DNA of 64,000 nt from contig NZ_WUEH01000005.1 of NCBI RefSeq assembly GCF_010468615.1, positions 62,001 to 126,000 of the forward strand. Direction: 5' to 3'. Of this stretch, positions 37,123 through 49,004 are shown piece by piece (position 1 is the stretch's first letter; every line of letters begins with the position of its first letter). Origin of the DNA: Pseudodesulfovibrio sp. JC047. GTDB taxonomy: Bacteria; Desulfobacterota; Desulfovibrionia; Desulfovibrionales; Desulfovibrionaceae. The position numbers were made by a program, and so were the translations under genes. The notes below the pieces were generated by a model, which was not told where the DNA came from, did not search any database, and saw only the letters and a list, made by a program, of their open reading frames with translations.

Positions 37123-38349
37123 ATGGATAGCAAACTCTTCCCGGAAGGGGTGCAGCGGTGCTCGTTTGGCAAGTTCCTGATCTGGACAGCCGTGATATTG
37201 GGCTTCTTCACCTGGGGGCTTTATTCCGCAGTACTCGTTTTGTACAATGGAATCGGGACCACCGGCCTGGATAACTACTTCGGGTTCGGTGCATGGATTA
37301 CTTTTGACCTTGCTGTGATCGCACTTGGCGCCGGTGCTTTTTTTACCGGTCTGCTCAAGTACATTCTCAAGATCAAACAACTTGAAAAAATTATTAATCT
37401 GACAGTTGTTGTTGGATTTATCTGTTATTCCGGTGCAATGCTGGTTTTGACGCTCGATATTGGACAGCCTGGCCGTGCGTGGTTTGGCTACTGGCATCCG
37501 AACGTTCATTCCATGCTGACGGAAGTTATCTTTTGTATCACCTGTTACTGCACTGTCTTGATCATCGAGTTTATCCCGCTGGTTCTTGAGCAGAAACAGT
37601 TGAACAAGATTCCTTTCATCCATGCGCTGGCGCACAATATGCACGTAAACATGGCTTTGTTTGCTGGTCTCGGTGCCTTTTTGTCCACCTTCCACCAGGG
37701 GTCCCTTGGTGGTATGTATGGCGTTTTGATTGGTCGTCCTTTCGCTTTCCGCGAAGGCTTCTTTATCTGGCCGTGGACATTCTTCCTGTTTATCCTTTCC
37801 GCTGTTGGTTCCGGTCCGGTTTTCACCGTGCTGGTTGCGACGTTCATGGAAAAATTGACAGGCAAGAAATTGGTCGATTTCAAGACCAAGGCTTTGATGG
37901 GCAAAATCGCTGGTACCATGCTGTGTGTGTACATGTTCTTCAAGATTCTCGATACGTGGGCATGGGCTTATGGCTACCTGCCTTCTATCGGATTGACCTT
38001 TGATGACATGTTCTATGGTGTGGCCTATGGTAAGTGGCTTTTGTTCTCGGAGATCGTGTTGTGTGGTGTTGTCCCGGCAGTCATGTTGATTGTTCCGGCC
38101 ATTCGCAATACACCATCGCTGTTGTATACTGCTGCTTTACTGGATTGTATCGGCGTTTCCCTAAATCGCTACATCTTCACCGTTCAAACCATCGCCTTCC
38201 CGGTTATGCCGTTTGACGAATGGCAGGTGTACTATCCGAACTGGGTTGAATATGCGTCTTCCATCATGATTGTGGCGTATGGATTCCTGGTTTTGACTTT
38301 GGTATATCGCTATCTTCCCTTGTTCCCGCAAGAGCGTGAACTGAACTAA
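37123..38349 (+). CDS. qrcD: Quinone reductase complex NrfD-type membrane subunit QrcD
   Basis: 408 residues with ten predicted transmembrane helices, NrfD/PsrC family. It holds the menaquinone-reducing site. Seen: FGFGAWITFDLAVIALGAGA at the typical second helix and MLVLTLDIGQPGRAWFGYWH, a stretch with conserved Asp and Arg common in NrfD-type proteins. Last gene of qrcABCD, followed by a terminator. Confidence 0.93.
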   Translation: MDSKLFPEGVQRCSFGKFLIWTAVILGFFTWGLYSAVLVLYNGIGTTGLDNYFGFGAWITFDLAVIALGAGAFFTGLLKYILKIKQLEKIINLTVVVGFICYSGAMLVLTLDIGQPGRAWFGYWHPNVHSMLTEVIFCITCYCTVLIIEFIPLVLEQKQLNKIPFIHALAHNMHVNMALFAGLGAFLSTFHQGSLGGMYGVLIGRPFAFREGFFIWPWTFFLFILSAVGSGPVFTVLVATFMEKLTGKKLVDFKTKALMGKIAGTMLCVYMFFKILDTWAWAYGYLPSIGLTFDDMFYGVAYGKWLLFSEIVLCGVVPAVMLIVPAIRNTPSLLYTAALLDCIGVSLNRYIFTVQTIAFPVMPFDEWQVYYPNWVEYASSIMIVAYGFLVLTLVYRYLPLFPQERELN

Positions 38350-38371
38350 GCGTTACCAATACTGAAAAATG

Positions 38372-38405
38372 AAAAGGTCCGTTCAAATGAGCGGGCCTTT
38401 TTTTT
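38372..38405 (+). terminator. Rho-independent terminator after qrcD
   Basis: AAAAGGtCCGtTC and GAgCGGgCCTTTT form a stem with G-U pairs and an AAAT-type loop, followed by nine T residues, about 25 bp past the qrcD stop. Confidence 0.85.
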
Positions 38406-38430
38406 GTTTATTTGATTGAGTTGGGAATGC

Positions 38431-38849
38431 CTTCGGCGACCCTTCGCCGGGGTGGCGTGGAATGTCTCCGACGGCCAGAGGGGAACCTCTTGAAAGAGGT
38501 TTCCCTCTGGACTCCCTTCCAGAACTATTTATCGCGCCTTCGGCGAGGCCATTCGTTATCGGTTGAGTGGGATTGAAGAATTAAAAAAGGGGGGGGGCAA
38601 AAAGAATATGTGTCAATTTTTTTTCAAAGTTTGTAAAAGATATTCTTTATGACATTTTTTCAAAAATTGTACGAAATTACGCTGTCGACAGCTTCGAGCG
38701 AAGCGAGCGATAAGAAGTTTCGGAGAGTCCAGAGGACCCTTTTCAAAGGGTTCTCTGGCAGGTCCAGGACAGCGTCCTGGTCTCGCTGAAGGCGACCCCC
38801 GGTAGGGTGGCTGCCGGTAGGCTTCCTTGGAAAGGGAACCTACCGGCAG
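38431..38849. repeat. Intergenic cluster of hairpin-forming repeats
   Basis: No gene in these 420 bp, but at least four strong inverted repeats: 38475-38510 (CCAGAGGG...CCCTCTGG), 38729-38758 (CCAGAGGACCC...GGGTTCTCTGG), 38764-38780 (CCAGGAC/GTCCTGG) and 38811-38849 (CTGCCGGTAGG/CCTACCGGCAG). The first two share the CCAGAGG/CCTCTGG arms and are probably copies of one repeat. CTTCGGCGA/TCGCC-type short repeats lie at 38430-38452 and 38536-38550. A nine-base G run is at 38589-38597. The last hairpin may terminate the M20 operon on the minus strand. Confidence 0.7.
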
Positions 38850-38852
38850 GGA

Positions 38853-40007
38853 TTAGATGAATGTTTCGAAAGTCCGGCGCAACACTTCGGCGGCCAAAAT
38901 GGTGCGTTCGGTCAGAGAGCGGGTGAGCATATATTCGTTGTGCGAGTGGTCCTTGCCGCCGGTGGGACCAAGGCCATCGATGACAGGTGTTCCGGCATTG
39001 GCGATGAAGTTGGCGTCAGAGACACCACCTCGCGCACTTTCTTGCACTGCGATATTGAGATCGGCACCAGCCTTAGCCACAATGTCAAACAGCTTGGTGA
39101 TTGCCGGGCTAGTTTCCATGGTGGGCCGCCCGGGAATGCGTTGCAGTGAACACTGTGTCCCGGGAATGGTAGGAGAAGCGGCGGATTGCTCAATGGCTTT
39201 TTGCAGAAGCACGCCATCCTCCTCGTGCCAGTAGCGACATTCGATCTTTGCGGAGGCTGATGGAGCAACGGTATTTGGACCAATGCCTCCTTCAACCAAC
39301 CCGACATTGAGCGAGATACCTTTGGCGGCATCGTTGAGCGCTTCGAGGCGAATTGTCTGATGGGCCATTTCGAGAATGGCACTTGCCTTTGGCCCTGAGA
39401 GGTTGCCGGAATGACCGGCTTTTCCCTGGACATTCAAGATAAAGGATATCTTGCCTTTGCGCGCGGTCACGACTTTTCCGCCGGGACCGGAACATTCGAA
39501 GACAAAAGCCGCAGCCGCTTTCCGGGCCTCTTCAATAATGAGAGCCTGGGAATTTGGCGAGCCGATTTCCTCATCCGAGTTGAAGACAAAGGTGATGGGC
39601 ATGTGATCGAGCAGTCCTGCGGTATCAAGTGCCTTGAGGGCATAGATGCCGACGACCAACCCGCCTTTCATGTCAATGACACCGGGACCGATGATGGTGT
39701 CCCCTTCCGGGCGAAAACAGTCAAACCCATCATCGGGAGGGAAAACCGTGTCCATGTGGCCGCAGAGCAAAAGCCCCGGGGCGTCGGACGTGCAGTTTTT
39801 TCGGGCGATGAGGTTGTCTCCGACGTTGTCCTGTTTTTCGCGTTGAACGGTAAACCCCATGTCAGTCATGACCTGTTCGAAAACCGTGACAACGGCGTCA
39901 GTCCCTTGCTTGTTGGGCGTGTAGCTGTTGATGCGAACGGTCTTTTCGAGCAGATCCATCATTTCCTGTTCATGGTCTGCCAGATAGGAACGAATGATGC
40001 GCTGCAT
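38853..40007 (-). CDS. M20-family metallopeptidase / carboxypeptidase G2-like amidohydrolase
   Basis: 384 residues with the M20 two-zinc catalytic domain: metal-binding CGHMDTVFPPDDGFD, catalytic FVFNSDEEIGS, bridging region ECSGPGG, and the late HNEYML histidine. The insertion lid domain (about 185-300; GKAGHSGNLSG) mediates dimers. It hydrolyses an N-acyl amino acid or dipeptide in the cytoplasm, as no signal peptide is present. Its ATG overlaps the stop of the aminomutase gene (TAATG), so the two are translationally coupled. It is the last gene of the three-gene operon. Confidence 0.88.
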   Translation of the reverse strand: MQRIIRSYLADHEQEMMDLLEKTVRINSYTPNKQGTDAVVTVFEQVMTDMGFTVQREKQDNVGDNLIARKNCTSDAPGLLLCGHMDTVFPPDDGFDCFRPEGDTIIGPGVIDMKGGLVVGIYALKALDTAGLLDHMPITFVFNSDEEIGSPNSQALIIEEARKAAAAFVFECSGPGGKVVTARKGKISFILNVQGKAGHSGNLSGPKASAILEMAHQTIRLEALNDAAKGISLNVGLVEGGIGPNTVAPSASAKIECRYWHEEDGVLLQKAIEQSAASPTIPGTQCSLQRIPGRPTMETSPAITKLFDIVAKAGADLNIAVQESARGGVSDANFIANAGTPVIDGLGPTGGKDHSHNEYMLTRSLTERTILAAEVLRRTFETFI

Positions 40008-41560
40008 TATTTCTTGCCGTACTTATTGAAGGCGAAGTCGTCGTCATTGATGTATTTTTCGTGATCCGCGTTGGGGTAATGGACTTCGCCACCCCAGGGC
40101 TTTTCGAGAATGGCTGTACCGTCTTCGTCGTAGCCGCGAACATTGTCGCGATGAAGCGGAATTTTTCCACCGGCTGCGGCAATATAGCGTGGGATGGCAT
40201 CCCCGGAGATGTTGCCGTACATGCCTTCGACGATGTCCCGTCCTTTCTGGATGGGCACGCGCATATGATAATATTGGGGGTTCCGGTAGGAACAGTTGAA
40301 GATGTAGTACGGACGCACATAGGCTTCTTGAATGGTTTCACACAGATGCCACATCTTGACTTTGGAGTCATTGATGCCGCGCAGTAAAACAGCCTGGTTG
40401 AGAACTGCGAAAACACGTTTTGAGATGTCTTTGAAGGCCTGGCGAGAAACCGGAGTGATTTCCTGTGCCGTATTGATCTGCGTGACCACTCGAACCGGAT
40501 TCCTGTCGTTGCTTTCTTCCAGAATATCCAACAGTTCCGAATCGATTCGTTGCGGTGTTGTGACCGGAACACGGGTACCGAGACGTTTCATTTTGATATG
40601 ATCGATGTCGTCAAGTTTGCCGAGCAGCCAACGCAGGGAACTGTTGGAGAGCATGAAGGCGTCACCGCCCGTAATCAAGACGTCGCGGATGGCCGGTTTG
40701 GACGCGATGTAATCCAGTGCTTCCTGATACGCCTGTTTGGAGAACGTGCGGTCAGATCCGCCGATATGGGCGATCCGTAGGCAGTGGGTGCAATACATGG
40801 CGCAGATGTTGGTGGACTTGAGCGCGACGACCCGAGGGTAAAATTGGTCCACAAGACGGACAGGGGAGTGGTCCGAAGCAACAGGGGGAATTTCTTTGCC
40901 GACCGTATCAACCATCTCGGCTGTCGGCACGGCCTGAAGCAGAACCGGGTCGTTCGGAACCGGCTGAATCAGACTGGCATAATAGGGAGTCATGCGCATC
41001 CGGTATTTTTGGGTGATACGCGCAACATCTTGAATACAGTCATCTGGCAGATTGAGACATTTTTGGAGTGTCTCTGCGGTGTCGATGCAATTGTTGAGCT
41101 GGCCGGGAAAGGAATTCCAATCATCATCGGTCATGCCTAAAACAGATTTGATGCGGGCTTGATTCTCGAGAATAGTGTCCCAGAGTTGAATTCCGCTGGG
41201 GGCTTCGACGTCTTTGCGTGCCAAATAGTCCTGTACGCGGAGTCCTGCGTCGGTGATGATTTCAAGGGCGCGTCCGACACGGCCACCAATCGTCACTGAG
41301 TGTTCATCAATCTCAACATGTTTAGCGCAGAGTTCGACAAGGCCTTCGCGAGTCAAACCGTATGCTTCGTACCCAGGACCGCCCGCTGTCTTGGCGTCTT
41401 TGAGTGCGTGGAAGAGGGCCACGATGGGCGCGGTTCCTTCGCTATTTTGGGCGTCGGCATAAAGCTGTTGCATGTTGGCGGAATCGGCTTCGGTCGCAGT
41501 GCCGTTGCCGGAAATCTGTTCAAGCAAGTCCGTCGTAAAATCATCCAGTTGAAAAGCCAT
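40007..41560 (-). CDS. KamA-family radical SAM aminomutase with non-standard substrate pocket
   Basis: 517 residues, about 100 longer than clostridial lysine 2,3-aminomutase because of an N-terminal helical extension (about 1-125). The radical-SAM cluster is CAMYCTHC (Cys253, 257, 260) and the SAM-binding ITGGDAFM follows. The PLP lysine is Lys466 in AAAGGKIPL, matching the family's PGGGGK. In lysine 2,3-aminomutase Asp293 (CDLS) and Asp330 (VVDAPGGGGK) bind the substrate amine; here these are Ser424 (NCSY) and Ala (YIAAAGGK). So lysine is unlikely, and the Lys/Asn pair reported for glutamate 2,3-aminomutase is absent too. It probably makes a beta-amino acid from an unknown alpha-amino acid. 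Confidence 0.85.
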   Translation of the reverse strand: MAFQLDDFTTDLLEQISGNGTATEADSANMQQLYADAQNSEGTAPIVALFHALKDAKTAGGPGYEAYGLTREGLVELCAKHVEIDEHSVTIGGRVGRALEIITDAGLRVQDYLARKDVEAPSGIQLWDTILENQARIKSVLGMTDDDWNSFPGQLNNCIDTAETLQKCLNLPDDCIQDVARITQKYRMRMTPYYASLIQPVPNDPVLLQAVPTAEMVDTVGKEIPPVASDHSPVRLVDQFYPRVVALKSTNICAMYCTHCLRIAHIGGSDRTFSKQAYQEALDYIASKPAIRDVLITGGDAFMLSNSSLRWLLGKLDDIDHIKMKRLGTRVPVTTPQRIDSELLDILEESNDRNPVRVVTQINTAQEITPVSRQAFKDISKRVFAVLNQAVLLRGINDSKVKMWHLCETIQEAYVRPYYIFNCSYRNPQYYHMRVPIQKGRDIVEGMYGNISGDAIPRYIAAAGGKIPLHRDNVRGYDEDGTAILEKPWGGEVHYPNADHEKYINDDDFAFNKYGKK

Positions 41561-41561
41561 A

Positions 41562-42962
41562 TCAGTACCTGTTTGTTTCCCGGTTGACGATGGATTCCGC
41601 CAACCGATGTGTTCCTTTTTTCAATTCTTGAAGCATCTCATCATGAGTAGCGGCCACGGCGGCTACGCGTCCCAGGAATGTCCCGGATCTGACCAGCACG
41701 TCTTTTCCGGTATGCTCCAGAATGACGTGTCCATGACTGCCTTTTTTTGCTGTTTCTGCAAAAAGTGCGCGTTCTGGTATATTTTGTCTGATGATGTCGG
41801 TGGTGACGACATCCTGTTCGACTTTGTGGTTGAATGTGCCCCAGTGGAGATGTCCATTGATGATGGCGTCATGATCCGGCTCGGTTGTTGTTGCCGGTAG
41901 CCCGTCGTGCAAGACGGCGTGACATTCCATATCGAACAGGTTGGGGGCTTCTTCGGGCAGGAGCTGTTCGAGCGCACTGCAAAATTCCATGGTTGTTCCC
42001 TGTTTCCGGGCATTGACTTCAATGAAGAAGATTTCATCATTTTCCGTCACAATGTAGTCGCACCCGTAGATGCCTCGAAAACCGAGTTTGCCGAGTTCCC
42101 GGCCAACGGCTGCGGTGTGATCTCTGAGATCGGCTTGGATTGTGGCGGGCAGGGTCGAAGGGAAGGTGGACCCTCTGAACTTGTTGCCATCCACGATGTT
42201 CATATCCGCGACACCGGCTACATAGACTTCGTTTTCATTGCCCACGACAGCCAGAACCGTCGGGTCCGAAGTGTGTGGGGTATATGCACTTATAAGGTAT
42301 TGGGTCTCATCGTTCGTGAAACGGGACAGGGCTTCTTCTGCGCACTGACAGACCATGCTTTGCGCACCTCCCGCACTGTGGCTGGCCGAGACGAACATGC
42401 CATGTTGGCAATGACGCTCCATGTCTTCAAGACAGTGTTTCAAGGCGGTTGTTCCGCAGCATGTCATGAAATTGACCACCGGGACGACTTGGGAAAACGT
42501 TTCGTATTGCCATGTTTTGTCATTGAGATGTTCGATGAGATCGGCTTTTGGACCGAGCAACAAGACCTGTCCGTCGTGTCCAAGGTCCAGTTCCGGACGG
42601 CTTTCGAACATCCAGACAAAAACGTGATCCTGTCGTTCCAGCAGCGTATCCAATACTGTATTGATAGAGGCTGATTGCGAGACGGTTTTGGAAAAATCGG
42701 CCATGGGAGTCCGATAGGCCACTTTTTGTCCGGCGGTTTCCATTTCGGCCCGAGCATCAGGATTGATGAGGATAAGATTGTCAAACGACGAGGTGTCGAT
42801 AAGATCCGGGGCAATGGAAATGGCCTTGAAGGGGGTGTTGAATTCTCTTTCCAAGGCCTTGGCAACAAAGTCGTTCAGTCCGTATGCCTTCAATTCACCA
42901 ATAAAGAGAAAATATGAAATCGAAGGATCCAGGTGTGTGCGAGTGAAATGCGGTTCGTCCAT
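41562..42962 (-). CDS. ATP-grasp ligase-like protein
   Basis: About 466 residues. The C-terminal half is an ATP-grasp fold: FVSASHSAGGAQSMV (flexible loop), LISAYTPHTSDPTVLAVVG, GFRGIYGCDYIV, and FFIEVNARKQGTTME, the ExNxR-type magnesium site. The N-terminal part has no familiar motif. ATP-grasp enzymes join a carboxylate to an amine or thiol via an acyl phosphate. The stop lies one base before the aminomutase ATG. The start is unclear: ATG 42962 is listed, but a TTG at 43034 would add a Cys-rich leader (MHISCCCSQQQ), and neither has a strong ribosome site. Not a biotin carboxylase; substrate unknown. Confidence 0.75.
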   Translation of the reverse strand: MDEPHFTRTHLDPSISYFLFIGELKAYGLNDFVAKALEREFNTPFKAISIAPDLIDTSSFDNLILINPDARAEMETAGQKVAYRTPMADFSKTVSQSASINTVLDTLLERQDHVFVWMFESRPELDLGHDGQVLLLGPKADLIEHLNDKTWQYETFSQVVPVVNFMTCCGTTALKHCLEDMERHCQHGMFVSASHSAGGAQSMVCQCAEEALSRFTNDETQYLISAYTPHTSDPTVLAVVGNENEVYVAGVADMNIVDGNKFRGSTFPSTLPATIQADLRDHTAAVGRELGKLGFRGIYGCDYIVTENDEIFFIEVNARKQGTTMEFCSALEQLLPEEAPNLFDMECHAVLHDGLPATTTEPDHDAIINGHLHWGTFNHKVEQDVVTTDIIRQNIPERALFAETAKKGSHGHVILEHTGKDVLVRSGTFLGRVAAVAATHDEMLQELKKGTHRLAESIVNRETNRY

Positions 42963-43265
42963 ATGTGATACATACTTTTTTAAACGTTCAACAAGTGCGG
43001 GCTGTTGTTGTGAACAGCAGCAGCTGATATGCAATTAACAGAAATCCATCGGGCTGTCTCTATTTTTGGAATAACTCGTTGCGAAAAAAAACGTTTTTTG
43101 GTAAATACCTCTATTAGCTGGTAAGCTTATACGTCGAGTTTGACGGAAGTGTAAACTGGCTCAGGCTTTGTTTTTGTGAATTTCCCTGTGGATTTTCGTT
43201 CTAGGTCGGGCTTTGAGAGGGCCGGGCCGATTGGGTTAACTGTTTTTGTTTTGGAGGAACTGAGA

Positions 43266-44234
43266 ATGAAGAAGCTTCTGTACGTCGCTCTGTTGCTGTG
43301 CCTGGGGTACATGCTCACTGCTGTTCCCGCTTCGGCTGGAAAAACGAAATTTGTGACGATTGGAACTGGTGGTATCACGGGTGTGTATTATCCCACTGGT
43401 GGCGCTATTGCCAAAATCGTGAATAAAAAGAAAGATGTCTACGGCATCCGTGCAACGGTTGAATCGACCGGCGGTTCCGTATTCAACGTGAATGCTGTCA
43501 TGGCAGGCGACCTCGAATTCGGTGTCGTGCAGTCTGATCGTCAGTTCCAGGCTTTTGAAGGTATTGCCGAATGGGAAGGCAAGCCGCAGAAGAAGCTGCG
43601 TGCGGTTTTTTCCATTCATCCCGAATCCGTGACCCTGGTTGCCGGTGCTGATACTGGTATTAAGGGCATCAAGGATCTCAAGGGCAAGAAAGTCAACATT
43701 GGAAACCCTGGTTCCGGTCAGTTGCAGAATTCCAAGGACGCGTTGAGCGCCGTTGGTCTGACCATGGATGATATTGACGCTGAAAAGGTCAAGGCCGCTG
43801 AGGCTCCTGGCTTGTTGCAGGACGGACGTATCGACGCATTTTTTTACACTGTTGGACATCCTTCCGGTGCCATCAAGGAAGCCTGTGCCGGTGCTCGTAA
43901 AGTGAATATCGTGCCCATCGTTGGTGTGGATTCCCTGTACATGGATCATCCGTACTATGCGCCGTCCATTATCCCCATGAAGAATTATCCCAGTGCCGCC
44001 AATGCAGGCAAGGATGTCAACAGCTTCGGCGTGAAGGCGACCATTGTGACTTCTGCCGATGTCCCTGATGCAGTGGTGTACGCCATTACCAAGGAAGTTT
44101 TCGAAAACTTTGATGAATTCAAGAAATTGCATCCCGCATACGCTGTCCTGACTAAAGAAGGAATGCTCCAGGGGTTATCCGCTCCGATTCATCCTGGCGC
44201 AATGAAATATTACAAGGAAGCCGGCCTGAAGTAA
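43266..44234 (+). CDS. TAXI-family TRAP transporter substrate-binding protein
   Basis: 322 residues. A Sec signal peptide (MKKLLYVALLLCLGYML, cleavage near ASAG) is followed by the TAXI signature FVTIGTGGITGVYYPTGGAIA, then VVQSDRQFQAFEG and KVNIGNPGSGQLQNSKDAL. It captures a solute in the periplasm, in this family often glutamate or another carboxylate. GGAGGAACTGAG precedes the ATG. Divergent from the ATP-grasp/aminomutase operon, with a 300-bp shared leader. Confidence 0.93.
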   Translation: MKKLLYVALLLCLGYMLTAVPASAGKTKFVTIGTGGITGVYYPTGGAIAKIVNKKKDVYGIRATVESTGGSVFNVNAVMAGDLEFGVVQSDRQFQAFEGIAEWEGKPQKKLRAVFSIHPESVTLVAGADTGIKGIKDLKGKKVNIGNPGSGQLQNSKDALSAVGLTMDDIDAEKVKAAEAPGLLQDGRIDAFFYTVGHPSGAIKEACAGARKVNIVPIVGVDSLYMDHPYYAPSIIPMKNYPSAANAGKDVNSFGVKATIVTSADVPDAVVYAITKEVFENFDEFKKLHPAYAVLTKEGMLQGLSAPIHPGAMKYYKEAGLK

Positions 44235-44379
44235 GGCGTTTTCTTTTGCAGTATCGTGACCGGGCGGTTCGCCGTCCGGTCGCATCAGGCTGAGGCCGAA
44301 TTCGGCCAGACCGCCGCCGTTTGCAGGGGAGCTTGCAAACGGTTCTTTGATTTTCGCCACCACAGCGATAGAGGGAGAA

Positions 44380-46461
44380 ATGGAAGATAAGACTTTCGAT
44401 GACAACAATGTAAAAGGAGTGGAATACGCTCGGGAACTGGCTGAAGCAGAACACGGTATGCAGGGCGACAGTGTCGGTGTCACGCGGACATTGACGATCG
44501 CCATCGCCATCATGTGGTCCCTGTTTCAATTGTCTATTGCCAGTTGGTTGATCGTGGACACCTTGTATATCAGGGCGTTTCATTTGGCATTCGCCATTCT
44601 GCTTGTTTTCTTGAACGTGCCCATGATGAAGGGGAATCCCAAATGGCGGCCTGACCTCCGCTTCCTCATGATCATGAACCGCGTGACCATTCTGGATTAT
44701 GTTTTTGGTATACTGGCTGCCTTTGCCGCATTGTATATCTTTATTGATTTTGACGGAATCGCCATGCGCTATGGAGCACCGACGACCAGGGATATCCTGT
44801 TCGGGTTGATGCTGGTCGGCCTGTTGCTCGAAGCGACCCGCCGGGTTATCGGCCCGGCTTTACCCGTGATCGCCATCCTGTTTTGCGTGTATGCGTTCCT
44901 TGGACCGTACATGCCTGACGTTATTGCGTTCAAAGGGGTTTCCCTGAATCGGTTCATAGGACAGATGGCCATGAGTTCCGAAGGTATCTACGGTATTCCG
45001 TTGGATGTGTCGGCAACGATTGTCTTTTTGTTCGTGTTGTTCGGAACCATGCTTGAAAAGGCCGGGGCCGGACATTTCTTCATTCAGTTGGCACTCTGTA
45101 TTCTCGGTGGGTTCAAAGGCGGCCCGGCCAAGGCCGCAATTCTTGGCTCCGGTCTGACCGGCATGGTTTCGGGATCATCCATCGCCAACATCGTGACCAC
45201 AGGAACCTTCACGATTCCCCTGATGAAGAAAGTCGGGTATCCGCCGACCAAGGCTGGGGCCATTGAAGTCGCGGCGTCCACGGATGGTCAGCTTGCTCCT
45301 CCGATCATGGGGGCTGCGGCCTTCATTATCGCCGAGTATGTGAACGTGCCGTATATCGAAGTCGTCAAAGCGGCTGCGGTTCCGGCGTTTGCCTCGTATG
45401 CCGCGTTGATTTACATCTCGCATATTGAGGCTTCCAAGCTCGGATTGTCGGGAATCCCCCGTGCCGAGTTGCCGAAATTCTTCCCGACACTCATGTCCGG
45501 ATTACATTTTCTGTTGCCGTTAAGTATGCTTTTGTACGAACTGATCGCTTTGCGGCATTCCCCTGAGCTGGCTGCCTTCCGGGCCATTCTCGTTTTGATG
45601 GGCATTATGTTGTTGCAGAAACCGATCAGGGCAGTGCTGGATAAGCAGCCGATTGTCCCCGCCATTATTCAGAGCCTGAAGGATATTTTTCTTTCCATGG
45701 CAGAAGGGGCGCGGAATATGGCTGGCGTTGCCATGGCAACGGCTGCGGCCGGTATTATTGTCGGTGTTGTGGCCCTTGGACTGGGGGGATTGATCACACA
45801 GATCATTGATGTCCTGTCTGGAGGCAACATCTTCTTGATGCTGGTCATTACGGCCATGGCGAGTTTGTTGATCGGGATGGGGCTGCCCACCACGGCAACA
45901 TATATTGTCATGGCGTCCCTGACCGCTCCGGCCATTGTGAGCATCGGTGGATTGCAGGGCTTCCTGGTTCCGCTTATGGCGGCGCATTTGTTCTGCTTCT
46001 ACTTCGGTATTCTGGCGGATGACACGCCGCCGGTCGGGCTGGCAGCCTACGCTGCCGCAGCCATTGCCGAGGCGCCCCCCATACCAACGGGATTGCAGGG
46101 GTTCATGTATGATATCCGAACGGCCATTTTACCGTTCATGTTCATATTCAACCATGACCTTATTTTGCATAACGTTGACAGTTGGCCGCAGGGAATATTG
46201 ATCTTCGTGATGGCGTGTATTGGAAACTTTGCATTTGCTTCGGCCACGCAAGGATGGTTCATTGCCAAGAACAAGTTCTATGATATTCCGATTCTGTTGA
46301 GCATTACGATTGTCATGTTCAGACCTGACTTCATTTCCAGGCTGATTGGTCTGCCGTATGACATGCGGTATTGGGTCTACCCCATTGGTTTGATTTTGTG
46401 GGGTGTCATGTGGATGATTCAGCGTCCGAGACAAAAGAAGGCAAGCGCCCTCACGGCGTAG
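44380..46461 (+). CDS. TRAP transporter fused 4TM/12TM permease
   Basis: 693 residues with roughly 17-18 transmembrane helices, a fusion of the small DctQ-like and large DctM-like TRAP subunits usual for TAXI systems. Seen: GAGHFFIQLALCILGGFKGG, SGSSIANIVTTGTFTIPLMK, STDGQLAPPIMGAAAFIIAE and LIGMGLPTTATYIVMASLTAPA. It moves the solute with a sodium gradient, together with the binding protein 145 bp upstream. ATG 44380 has GAGGGA ahead. Confidence 0.93.
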   Translation: MEDKTFDDNNVKGVEYARELAEAEHGMQGDSVGVTRTLTIAIAIMWSLFQLSIASWLIVDTLYIRAFHLAFAILLVFLNVPMMKGNPKWRPDLRFLMIMNRVTILDYVFGILAAFAALYIFIDFDGIAMRYGAPTTRDILFGLMLVGLLLEATRRVIGPALPVIAILFCVYAFLGPYMPDVIAFKGVSLNRFIGQMAMSSEGIYGIPLDVSATIVFLFVLFGTMLEKAGAGHFFIQLALCILGGFKGGPAKAAILGSGLTGMVSGSSIANIVTTGTFTIPLMKKVGYPPTKAGAIEVAASTDGQLAPPIMGAAAFIIAEYVNVPYIEVVKAAAVPAFASYAALIYISHIEASKLGLSGIPRAELPKFFPTLMSGLHFLLPLSMLLYELIALRHSPELAAFRAILVLMGIMLLQKPIRAVLDKQPIVPAIIQSLKDIFLSMAEGARNMAGVAMATAAAGIIVGVVALGLGGLITQIIDVLSGGNIFLMLVITAMASLLIGMGLPTTATYIVMASLTAPAIVSIGGLQGFLVPLMAAHLFCFYFGILADDTPPVGLAAYAAAAIAEAPPIPTGLQGFMYDIRTAILPFMFIFNHDLILHNVDSWPQGILIFVMACIGNFAFASATQGWFIAKNKFYDIPILLSITIVMFRPDFISRLIGLPYDMRYWVYPIGLILWGVMWMIQRPRQKKASALTA

Positions 46462-46476
46462 TGCGAGGAGACTCTT

Positions 46477-46875
46477 ATGCCTGAACTCAGTGATTACAGG
46501 AAAATGGTTCAATGCGAACGATGTCTCGAAGTCTTCTCGGCAGATTTGGAGACATGTCCAGTATGCGGCAGTGACGATTTGATTGGGTACAAGATACAGA
46601 ATCCGTTTTCCAGATTGCCCATGGAGCGGGTTTTGTATGCCACGGGTCATCTCATGTGGATGATTGGCCTGGTTGGGTGTCTTTTCCTCTTATGGAATAC
46701 CAATTCGGATGATAGCAGCCGAAATTGGATGTTTGCATGTGCGGGATTTGGTGTTCTGCTTTTCAGTATGGTCATGTCTGTCACCCTTTTCGGATTGGGT
46801 GAAATGTTGAAAAGAATGATTCGAATTCAACGCCGGGTCCGTGCTTTCATGCAGGATTATGTGAGTAACGAATAA
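46477..46875 (+). CDS. Zinc-ribbon membrane protein
   Basis: 132 residues. An N-terminal zinc ribbon, CERCLEVFSADLETCPVCGS, precedes two transmembrane helices (LMWMIGLVGCLFLLW and FACAGFGVLLFSMVMSVTLFG) and a basic tail. No specific family recognised. It starts 15 bp after the TRAP permease and precedes the terminator, so it may be an accessory of the TAXI-TRAP system, though this is context only. Confidence 0.7.
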   Translation: MPELSDYRKMVQCERCLEVFSADLETCPVCGSDDLIGYKIQNPFSRLPMERVLYATGHLMWMIGLVGCLFLLWNTNSDDSSRNWMFACAGFGVLLFSMVMSVTLFGLGEMLKRMIRIQRRVRAFMQDYVSNE

Positions 46876-46881
46876 TTCAGC

Positions 46882-46918
46882 TTTCCCGGAAGTCCCTTTG
46901 GGACTTCCGGGAAACTGC
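46882..46918 (+). terminator. Strong rho-independent terminator of the TRAP operon
   Basis: TTTCCCGGAAGTCCC and GGGACTTCCGGGAAA form a perfect 15-bp stem with a 3-nt loop, followed by CTGCTTTT. Confidence 0.85.
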
Positions 46919-47199
46919 TTTTGGCAGACTTTTTGCGTGTTTTTACGGGGATAGGTTTTTGAAAAGGCGAAAAATCGTCGGAAAAGTGAATCGTTGGAGC
47001 GTTGGTTTGACCACAGGCGTGAAATAGGGCTTTTCAAACAGTAATTTCTGTCAGTCGGAAAGTAACTGTATCTTGACTTTTTACGCGTTGTAGACAATGT
47101 TTTTTCCTGTTCAGGAGGCTCGGTCGGCAGTCAGAACAGATGAACTGCTGATGGGCTTCTTTTTTTCTTCCAAAATTTATGCTGAGGAGCAATCTTCAA

Positions 47200-47928
47200 A
47201 TGGCAATGATAGAAGTGCAGAAGCTGCACAAATGGTATGGCGATTTTCATGTATTACAGGGGATTACCGAGTCCGTGAATAAAGGGGAAGTGCTCGCGAT
47301 TTGCGGTCCTTCCGGGTCTGGTAAATCCACGTTTATTCGCTGTATCAATCGGTTGGAGGAGTACCAAAAGGGACAAATCCTGTTTGACGGCAAGGATATT
47401 CTGGATAAGGATGTCAACGTCAATGATTTGCGGGCCGAGATCGGTATCGTGTTCCAGCAGTTTAATCTGTACCCCCATCTGACTGTGCTGAAAAATGTCA
47501 CGTTGGCTCCTATCAAAGTGAAGAATGTTCCCAAGGACGAAGCTGAAACCGTTGCGCTCAGTTTGCTTGAACGGGTGGGAATCCACGATCAGGCACATAA
47601 ATATCCGTCCGAGTTGTCTGGTGGACAGCAGCAGCGTGTCGCCATTGCCCGGTCTTTGGCCATGAAGCCCAAGGTCATGCTTTTTGATGAGCCGACATCC
47701 GCTCTGGATCCAGAGATGATTAATGAAGTCCTGAATGTCATGAAGGATTTGGCCCGCGAGGGGATGACCATGCTTTGTGTCACCCATGAAATGGGTTTTG
47801 CCCGCGAAGTGTGCGACCGGGTGTTGTTCATGGATGGCGGTGTCGTGGTCGAACAGGCGGCACCGGAAGAATTTTTCAAGAATCCACAGCATGAGCGGAC
47901 CAAAAATTTCCTGAAGGAAATTCTGTAA
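47200..47928 (+). CDS. Polar amino-acid ABC transporter ATPase (GlnQ/HisP-type), without adjacent partners
   Basis: 242 residues. Walker [20 protein letters not shown]-loop [15 protein letters not shown], signature LSGGQQQR, Walker [16 protein letters not shown] and the VTHEMGFA switch, as in glutamine/histidine/general amino-acid importers. No permease or binding protein is adjacent: the gene stands alone between two terminators. ATG 47200 is preferred (GAGGAG ten bases ahead) over an in-frame ATG at 47179. A second gene of the same family at 63154 belongs to a complete-looking operon. Confidence 0.92.
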
Positions 47929-48365
47929 GCCAAAGCGGTTTGTTTTTCAACGAAGACACTGTTGGAGACTCGCAGGGTGCTTCGGCCCTTGGGATTGTCT
48001 CGTGGCGGTGTGTGCGGCTCACTGTATAGCCGTGAAAGCTGATTCTTTTTGCGTAAGGAATCGTGATTGAAGCGTGTGCCGGGGACGTTCAGGCGTTTCC
48101 GGCTTTTCTCTGATACGAGATGCATGTCTGGATGATTCTCGGTGTCTTTTGGGATGAAAGACTGTCTTCAGACTGATGCGTTGAGCGAAAAGGATTGTTT
48201 TTTTTATCTGATGTTTTTTGATTGTGAGAATTTACGTGTCCACATGGGCGCTAAAGTGTTTTTTTACGAGTAGGAAAAAGAGAAAAAAGTGTTCTTCTCC
48301 TACCAATAATTTTTGATTTAATCTTTTAAGAATATCAAAAAAATGTACCTCGAAGGAGGTTTGTT
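47929..48365. other. Intergenic region between the ABC ATPase and cbiC
   Basis: About 437 bp without a convincing gene. It includes the hairpin at 48078-48107 and, from 48200 on, a very AT-rich stretch leading to the cbiC ribosome site. A gapped inverted repeat GTAGGA...TCCTAC lies at about 48271-48302. No cobalamin riboswitch box was recognised. Confidence 0.45.
48078..48107 (+). terminator. Probable terminator downstream of the ABC ATPase
   Basis: GCCGGGGACG and CGTTTCCGGC form a 10-bp stem with two G-U pairs and a 6-nt loop, followed by TTTTC. It is 150 bp past the ATPase stop. Confidence 0.55.
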
Positions 48366-49004
48366 TTGTCAGAAATAACGATTCAGAATTTTCAAAAACC
48401 AAATGATATTGAAGCAGAGTCCTTCCGAATCATTGATTCTGAAGTTCCTGAACCGCGTCCTTACTCTGGTCATAAATGGGAAATTGTTCGGAGAATGATT
48501 CATACCACAGCCGATTTTGAGATGCTTGATTTGGTTCGATTTCACGATGGTGCCATTGAGTCAGGGACAGCTGCGTTGAAACGTGGTGCCATAATCGTGA
48601 CGGATACAGAGATGGCCAAGCGTGGGATGCCTGTGCGTCGTTTAGACCCGTTGGGGTGTACTGCCCGTTGTCTTATTAATGATCCACGTGTTGTCGAGCG
48701 TGCTCAACGTGAAGGAATGACCCGGGCAAAGGCCGCTGTTGACATCGCGGTCAACGAGGTCAAACCGGAAATATTCGTTGTAGGAAATGCGCCAACCGCG
48801 TTGATTCGGCTTGTCGAGCATGTGGATAACGGTGATATTTCTCCAGCGTTGGTCGTCGGAATGCCGGTTGGATTTGTGAATGCCGCCGAGTCCAAGGCTC
48901 TGCTCATGAGCCGCGATATCCCATACATTTCCATTGAAGGTCGGAAGGGCGGAAGCGCCTTGGCCGCGTGTGTTATCAATGCAATGGCGGTTATGGTGTT
49001 GTGA
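48366..49004 (+). CDS. cbiC: Precorrin-8X methylmutase / cobalt-precorrin-8 methylmutase
   Basis: 212 residues of the CbiC/CobH family, moving a methyl group from C-11 to C-12 to form hydrogenobyrinate or cobyrinate in cobalamin synthesis. The catalytic histidine is in RRMIHTTADFEML, and the substrate-binding end reads VVGNAPTALIRLVE and GMPVGFVNAAESK. It begins with TTG at 48366, supported by a strong AAGGAGG site; the first possible ATG would remove conserved sequence. It stands alone here, far from other cobalamin genes. Confidence 0.92.
   Translation: MSEITIQNFQKPNDIEAESFRIIDSEVPEPRPYSGHKWEIVRRMIHTTADFEMLDLVRFHDGAIESGTAALKRGAIIVTDTEMAKRGMPVRRLDPLGCTARCLINDPRVVERAQREGMTRAKAAVDIAVNEVKPEIFVVGNAPTALIRLVEHVDNGDISPALVVGMPVGFVNAAESKALLMSRDIPYISIEGRKGGSALAACVINAMAVMVL

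Follow-up and report, generated by a model that had tools for sequence, protein, structure and literature searches.

A divergent gene unit of Pseudodesulfovibrio that may make, degrade and recapture a glutamate-type beta-amino-acid amide or dipeptide

Introduction

Several described systems bear a partial likeness to a gene set in a 64,000-nt stretch of Pseudodesulfovibrio sp. JC047 DNA (NZ_WUEH01000005.1, 62,001–126,000; hereafter the window, whose positions serve as coordinates), in which genes for an ATP-grasp ligase, a KamA-family radical SAM aminomutase and an M20 hydrolase lie opposite the genes of a TAXI-type TRAP importer. AblA is a KamA-family aminomutase, TeaABC is of the DctP type, and the N-acetylglutaminylglutamine amide operon encodes an asparagine synthetase-like protein, a GNAT/ATP-grasp protein and an M42 peptidase for a neutral glutamine dipeptide solute. 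As proposed for the window, the aminomutase of the AblA/AblB system for N-epsilon-acetyl-beta-lysine belongs to an operon, there of two steps, in which a beta-amino acid is made and then capped, and beta-glutamate and beta-glutamine are known compatible solutes, according to passages of PMC1224877. Among osmoprotectant genes, ablA and the beta-glutamate gene eam are occasionally accompanied by Na+ riboswitches, as part of PMC9337991 has it, and an excerpt of PMC7174268 describes how TeaABC recovers ectoine otherwise lost by the cell, a likeness to the recapture of a self-made solute proposed below.

The window locus differs from each of these systems. Compared with AblA/AblB, it has lost the lysine-type pair of aspartates, has an ATP-grasp ligase in place of an acetyltransferase and carries a hydrolase and an importer in addition; an earlier note on this DNA had remarked on the lack of an acetyltransferase, and Pfam indeed returned no GNAT match for the triple or for the three importer genes. 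The N-acetylglutaminylglutamine amide system likewise combines an ATP-grasp ligase with a peptidase in one operon, whereas the window triple gave no GNAT or amidotransferase match in Pfam and has a radical SAM aminomutase and an M20 enzyme instead. Unlike TeaABC, the window importer is of the TAXI type and would serve a different solute. No described operon of the same make-up was found in the open-access literature.

We propose, at a probability of roughly 45%, that six genes, transcribed divergently as two units, act together as a module to make, degrade and recapture a glutamate-type beta-amino-acid amide or dipeptide, with compatible solute as its likeliest role. The proposal starts from what was observed, namely the gene content, its recurrence, the catalytic residues and the importer family.

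Results

Gene layout and recurrence

The locus comprises the following features.

38853..40007, minus strand: M20 metallohydrolase, carboxypeptidase G2-like, 384 aa; best PDB match 1cg2 (E 5.9e-45)
40007..41560, minus strand: KamA-family radical SAM aminomutase, 517 aa, with an N-terminal extension of ~105 aa; above the TIGR00238 cut-off
41562..42962, minus strand: ATP-grasp ligase, 466 aa; PF02655; start set from relatives with upstream stops
42963..43265, no strand assigned: divergent promoter region, conserved core with the palindrome A6CGT6; from an alignment of five genus members
43266..44234, plus strand: TAXI-type TRAP solute-binding protein, 322 aa; TIGR02122; best PDB match 8s4j (VcGluP)
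44383..46461, plus strand: TRAP fused permease; TIGR02123
46477..46875, plus strand: small protein, zinc-ribbon-like with hydrophobic stretches by eye; no Pfam or NCBIfam match

The ligase, aminomutase and M20 genes follow one another in that order on the minus strand. The ligase stop (TGA, 41564–41562) is separated by 1 bp from the aminomutase ATG beginning at 41560, and the aminomutase stop overlaps the M20 start by one base (TAATG, ATG from 40007), so that the coordinates bear out the close same-strand spacing reported in the earlier note; the three products may be made in fixed ratio. The three-gene operon of that note holds as a conserved set, but the unit is larger, the divergent TAXI-TRAP genes at 43266–46875 having been missed. 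The ligase had also been over-extended, to a TTG at 43034; ATG 42962 is the likely start, because L021, L055 and L056 carry in-frame stops upstream of the ATG aligned to ligase residue 25. No clear ribosome-binding site was seen at ATG 42962.

The ligase was searched for in 297 phylum genomes, in 199 family genomes, by profile in 395 phylum genomes (overlapping the 297) and in 36 genus genomes; a single genome-contig scan, the remaining genome searches lying within the window's phylum, returned two close loci. Strong matches merged into 13 distinct genomes carrying the ligase clade (L022 = L057 and L021 = G581, each counted once), and weak matches, at E ~1e-7 or weaker and confined to short stretches, were regarded as different ATP-grasp proteins and excluded. 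Five of the 13 belong to the genus, the window's genome included, four to other genera of the family (G298, G337, G338 and G358) and four lie beyond the family (G012, G058, G135 and G502). The closest named relative, a Pseudodesulfovibrio metagenome-assembled genome (L021; Desulfovibrionaceae), carries the triple at identities of 76, 92 and 78%.

A KamA gene directly follows the ligase in 13/13 genomes, and an M20 gene comes next in 11; in G012 the contig ends first, and G502 (L100) has ligase and KamA genes and no M20. Because this order recurs, the arrangement is not due to chance, and the possibility entertained in the earlier note that the genes are rarely neighbours did not materialize. 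One aminomutase counted as adjacent is split over two frames near codon 336 (G338; L058:8047–8060), through real decay or an assembly error, and was omitted from the alignments and tree. The ligase and aminomutase of G135 (L052) form one 922-aa open frame with no stop, and the two activities are therefore tied together. Genes near this fused gene (L052:6369–13933) include glnE, glnA, an ammonium transporter gene and a class-I glutamine amidotransferase gene. The triple thus recurs on genome search, as the earlier note had suggested looking for, within the clade of 13 genomes, but it is rare and patchy, being present in 5/36 genomes of the genus.

The aminomutase

A TIGR00238 score of 243.6 bits (cut-off 199.2) assigns the predicted aminomutase to the KamA radical SAM family. 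The protein keeps a CxxxCxxC motif (C253/C257/C260), which by analogy with lysine 2,3-aminomutase (LAM) we take to be the iron-sulfur cysteines, together with R262 (LAM R134), presumably the carboxylate arginine, and K466 (LAM K337), presumably the pyridoxal phosphate (PLP) lysine; all are kept in 40/40 aligned rows. Its best equivalog model was glutamate 2,3-aminomutase (TIGR04368; eam), at 320 bits against a cut-off of 650, and it scored 272.9 against 525.4 for TIGR03820, lysine 2,3-aminomutase. In the 395-genome search, TIGR04368 scores were 716 for L101 (the sole locus above 650), 632.5 for L051 and 607.9 for L052, the next being 520.

EpmA and EpmB modify elongation factor P, and the presence of EpmB among the KamA kin (TIGR03821, 177.7 bits) is consistent with a reading in which a cofactor or macromolecule is the target of the ligase and aminomutase, for instance receiving a beta-amino-acid tail. 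The score falls short of the EpmB cut-off of 369.3, however, and this reading leaves the M20 enzyme and TAXI-TRAP importer without an obvious task; we regard it as very improbable.

The positions of LAM D293 and D330, which we take to be the Asp pair binding the lysine epsilon-amino group, are occupied by S424 and A462 in the window enzyme. Asp stands at both in 27/27 other KamA loci aligned (the best-scoring among the matches listed); L101 has Lys/Asn there, and L051 and L052 share Lys/Thr. All ten window-clade rows have Ser at the first position, paired with Ala in eight and with Thr in L050 and L100, and this clade also has one residue inserted (S-Y/F-RNPQ) and three deleted before the PLP lysine. 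A tree gave three separate, well-supported groups, namely the 27 Asp/Asp enzymes, the window clade and L051 with L052; L101 fell outside all three, with root and sister order unsettled given long branches and a long L052 row.

Because both lysine-type Asp positions are lost, the substrate is probably not lysine, a point in favour of the earlier note, and lysine to beta-lysine activity was rejected on this ground. The distant triples (L051 and L052) appear to have a glutamate-type aminomutase, sharing Lys with L101 and having Thr where L101 has Asn. The pocket of the window clade seems derived or remodelled, and its substrate may not be free glutamate; the lower TIGR04368 score, the Ser/Ala pair and the N-terminal extension all set the window enzyme apart from glutamate 2,3-aminomutase.

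The ligase

The PF02655 score of the putative ligase, 24.5 bits against a cut-off of 23.2, is a marginal assignment to the ATP-grasp family (the L051 ligase scored 34.9); with it, each of the ATP-grasp, KamA-like and M20 assignments of the earlier note passed a Pfam or NCBIfam cut-off. An 11-row alignment has 89 invariant columns, including K149, D302, E315, N317, R319 and K320. AlphaFold models from three-sequence alignments were poor for both the ligase (mean predicted local distance difference test score, pLDDT, of 42, with the ATP-grasp fold not confirmed) and the aminomutase (mean pLDDT 45). The only kin recovered were remote, namely BesA, PGM1, biotin carboxylases and carbamoyl-phosphate synthase. 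The BesA equivalog model gave 24.4 bits (cut-off 750), and no full-length similarity to BesA or PGM1 was found among the PDB matches, which span only part of the protein. A plasmid search returned no match to the window ligase and, for the L051 ligase, three weak Streptomyces matches, two of them annotated as PGM1-related. Outside the 13-genome count, three genomes of one genus (G213, G277 and G378) have a ligase paralog at 32–34% identity with no adjoining KamA gene. The paralog (L053, L054 and L061) adjoins a B12-type radical SAM gene, a family match in L053 and L054 and a resemblance only in L061.

BesA and PGM1 make dipeptide-type products of the signal, antimetabolite or antibiotic-like kind. 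Their place among the nearest named ligases, together with the patchy spread of the triple in the genus, would fit a specialised metabolite of such a kind, with the M20 enzyme serving for self-protection or maturation. An importer and no exporter adjoins the triple in the window's family, among the 12 window genes compared, which argues against this reading; we consider it unlikely.

The M20 hydrolase

The M20 enzyme scored 98.7 against PF01546 (cut-off 24.6) and 58.8 against PF07687 (cut-off 21), and reached no NCBIfam equivalog cut-off (PRK07338, 266.7 vs 357). On the assumption that labels and roles are those of carboxypeptidase G2 (1cg2), the zinc ligands, the catalytic Glu and the equivalents of N275, R288 and R324 are present and invariant in 10/10 aligned relatives, which predicts a carboxypeptidase G2-like M20 enzyme; the equivalent of K208 is lost, a difference from carboxypeptidase G2.

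The importer and the divergent promoter

With scores of 342.3 bits for TIGR02122 (cut-off 84.35) and 623.4 for TIGR02123 (cut-off 320.65), the importer genes are predicted to encode a TAXI TRAP transporter. The TAXI, TRAP permease and small genes are transcribed away from the ligase in 9/9 triple members of the window's family, and the importer genes are thus part of the unit there; the neighbourhood comparison covered 12 window genes, and other recurring partners were possibly missed. Beyond the family, G058 (L051) has a TAXI-TRAP pair (67 and 57% identity) nearby, set apart from the triple by three genes on its upstream side; the L050 stretch is too short for importer presence to be judged. 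Among the 199 family genomes, a TRAP permease of at least 74% identity occurs in eight, including the seven with the triple (Fisher p 4e-12, uncorrected for kinship).

Related importers also occur in triple-less genomes; the importer therefore has a life of its own, and its candidacy as an exclusive partner of the triple was rejected. At 16 triple-less TRAP loci in the family, a TAXI match lies beside the permease in 15 and the small gene in 15, and the small gene follows the TRAP gene in the family's triple-bearing operons as well as in most triple-less ones. G331 (L151) has a TRAP of 81% identity, its importer operon lying opposite an M20 gene (L151:7636–8823; 33% identity to the window's), and no ligase or aminomutase was found in the 19 kb read.

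The TAXI protein keeps the equivalents of nine VcGluP residues (Y45, Y46, S75, Q93, H123, E125, G156, Y200 and G203) and departs from it at D157 (Gln) and M201 (Thr); VcGluP (8s4j) binds glutamate, with an affinity that depends chiefly on Y45 and Q93, according to part of PMC11574862. The H123/D157 positions are His/Gln in 10/10 triple-linked TAXI proteins and Ala/Asn in 14/14 from triple-less operons of other genera (14 of the 16 triple-less TRAP loci supplied rows). Because L151 and triple-less genus members share the pair, with His (one Tyr) and Gln, kinship may explain this pattern.

Several of these observations bear on a catabolic or salvage reading, in which the importer would take up external glutamate-like peptides or amides, the M20 enzyme would cut them, the aminomutase would run from beta to alpha and the ligase would activate or store a fragment. 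The importer genes adjoin the triple, the same TRAP type stands opposite an M20 gene in G331, and genes of enoyl-CoA hydratase and acyl-CoA-ligase type lie between ligase and importer at L051. The constant core of the set, however, is ligase plus aminomutase (without M20 in L100, fused in L052) rather than M20 plus importer, and catabolism needs no ATP-spending ligase. We rate salvage as rather unlikely, ahead of the specialised metabolite.

The intergenic region contains a block of ~45 bp with A6CGT6 that is nearly invariant in the five genus members. A sigma-54 promoter was considered for this core and dropped, its spacing being one base too long by eye. Rfam returned nothing at gathering score for window positions 38000–49000.

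The genomic site

In genomes of the genus, a molybdopterin/iron-sulfur/NrfD gene cluster flanks the site on one side and a GlnQ-like ABC gene on the other. Nine triple-less genus genomes have a TAXI match, of which six were read (L121–L126); the same flanks there surround an open TAXI gene, beside the GlnQ-like ABC gene, and neither the triple nor a TRAP permease nor the small gene was matched within 11.5 kb. This TAXI gene is an orphan binding protein. Only 437 bp (47929–48365) lie between the GlnQ-like ABC ATPase gene and cbiC in the window; L021, L055, L056 and L121 have ~2.6 kb at this spot, where L055 has two ABC permease genes, and the window ABC gene is probably an orphan left by deletion.

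Discussion

A system to make, remove and recapture a beta-amino-acid amide or dipeptide would need a mutase, a ligase, a hydrolase and an importer, and it is for this reason that we read the unit as such. The substrate, the order and direction of the steps and the role would be as follows. The aminomutase would shift the alpha-amino group of a glutamate-like substrate to carbon 3, and the ligase, using ATP, would attach an amine or a second amino acid to the product or to a precursor of it. When the pool must drop, the M20 enzyme would hydrolyse the ligase-made bond. The TAXI-TRAP importer would retrieve leaked product or provide the glutamate precursor. A glutamate-like substrate is suggested because the aminomutase scores and Lys of L051 and L052, the carboxypeptidase G2-like M20 enzyme and the VcGluP-like TAXI protein all lean that way. 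The earlier note's idea that the operon makes and recycles a beta-amino-acid amide or dipeptide thus carries over as a conjecture, now with a glutamate-type amino acid indicated. A compatible solute is our best single guess, since beta-glutamate-type solutes, riboswitch-linked eam and ablA, and recapture by TeaABC are all in print; salvage and specialised metabolism are live rivals.

Several points weigh against the proposed solute module. Early nuclear magnetic resonance work, as an excerpt of PMC1224877 relates it, excluded a glutamate aminomutase as the origin of beta-glutamate in methanogens, and the known beta-glutamate solute precedent therefore uses another route. The KamA clade of the window keeps neither the Lys nor the Asn of the L101 glutamate 2,3-aminomutase, and ligase specificity cannot be read from sequence. 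The enoyl-CoA hydratase and acyl-CoA-ligase-type genes of L051 could hint at catabolism, no importer was matched in the 14 kb read at L052 or the 13 kb at L100, which also lacks M20, and 16/199 family genomes carry the TRAP permease (59–65% identity) without the triple. No sign of osmotic control was seen, none of the eight sub-threshold Rfam matches in window positions 38000–49000 being a Na+ riboswitch.

The steps may also run in the reverse of the textbook order for beta-amino-acid solutes. The ligase would then build an amide or a dipeptide of gamma-glutamyl type first, and the aminomutase of the window type would act on this larger molecule to yield a beta-peptide solute, recaptured by its own TRAP importer. 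The distal pocket of that aminomutase has lost its anchoring residues, and its loop ahead of the PLP lysine is shorter by three residues. We hold the reversed order to be unlikely, and place it behind salvage and the specialised metabolite. If true, it would represent a radical SAM 2,3-aminomutase with a dipeptide substrate and a new class of beta-peptide solute.

Should the proposed glutamate-type solute module be correct, sulfate reducers would possess a route to a beta-amino-acid amide or dipeptide that was not found in the open-access literature, and KamA chemistry would widen past the enzymes for lysine, glutamate and arginine, each of which has its own model. An unnamed ATP-grasp clade would gain a function, and the TAXI importer a likely ligand.

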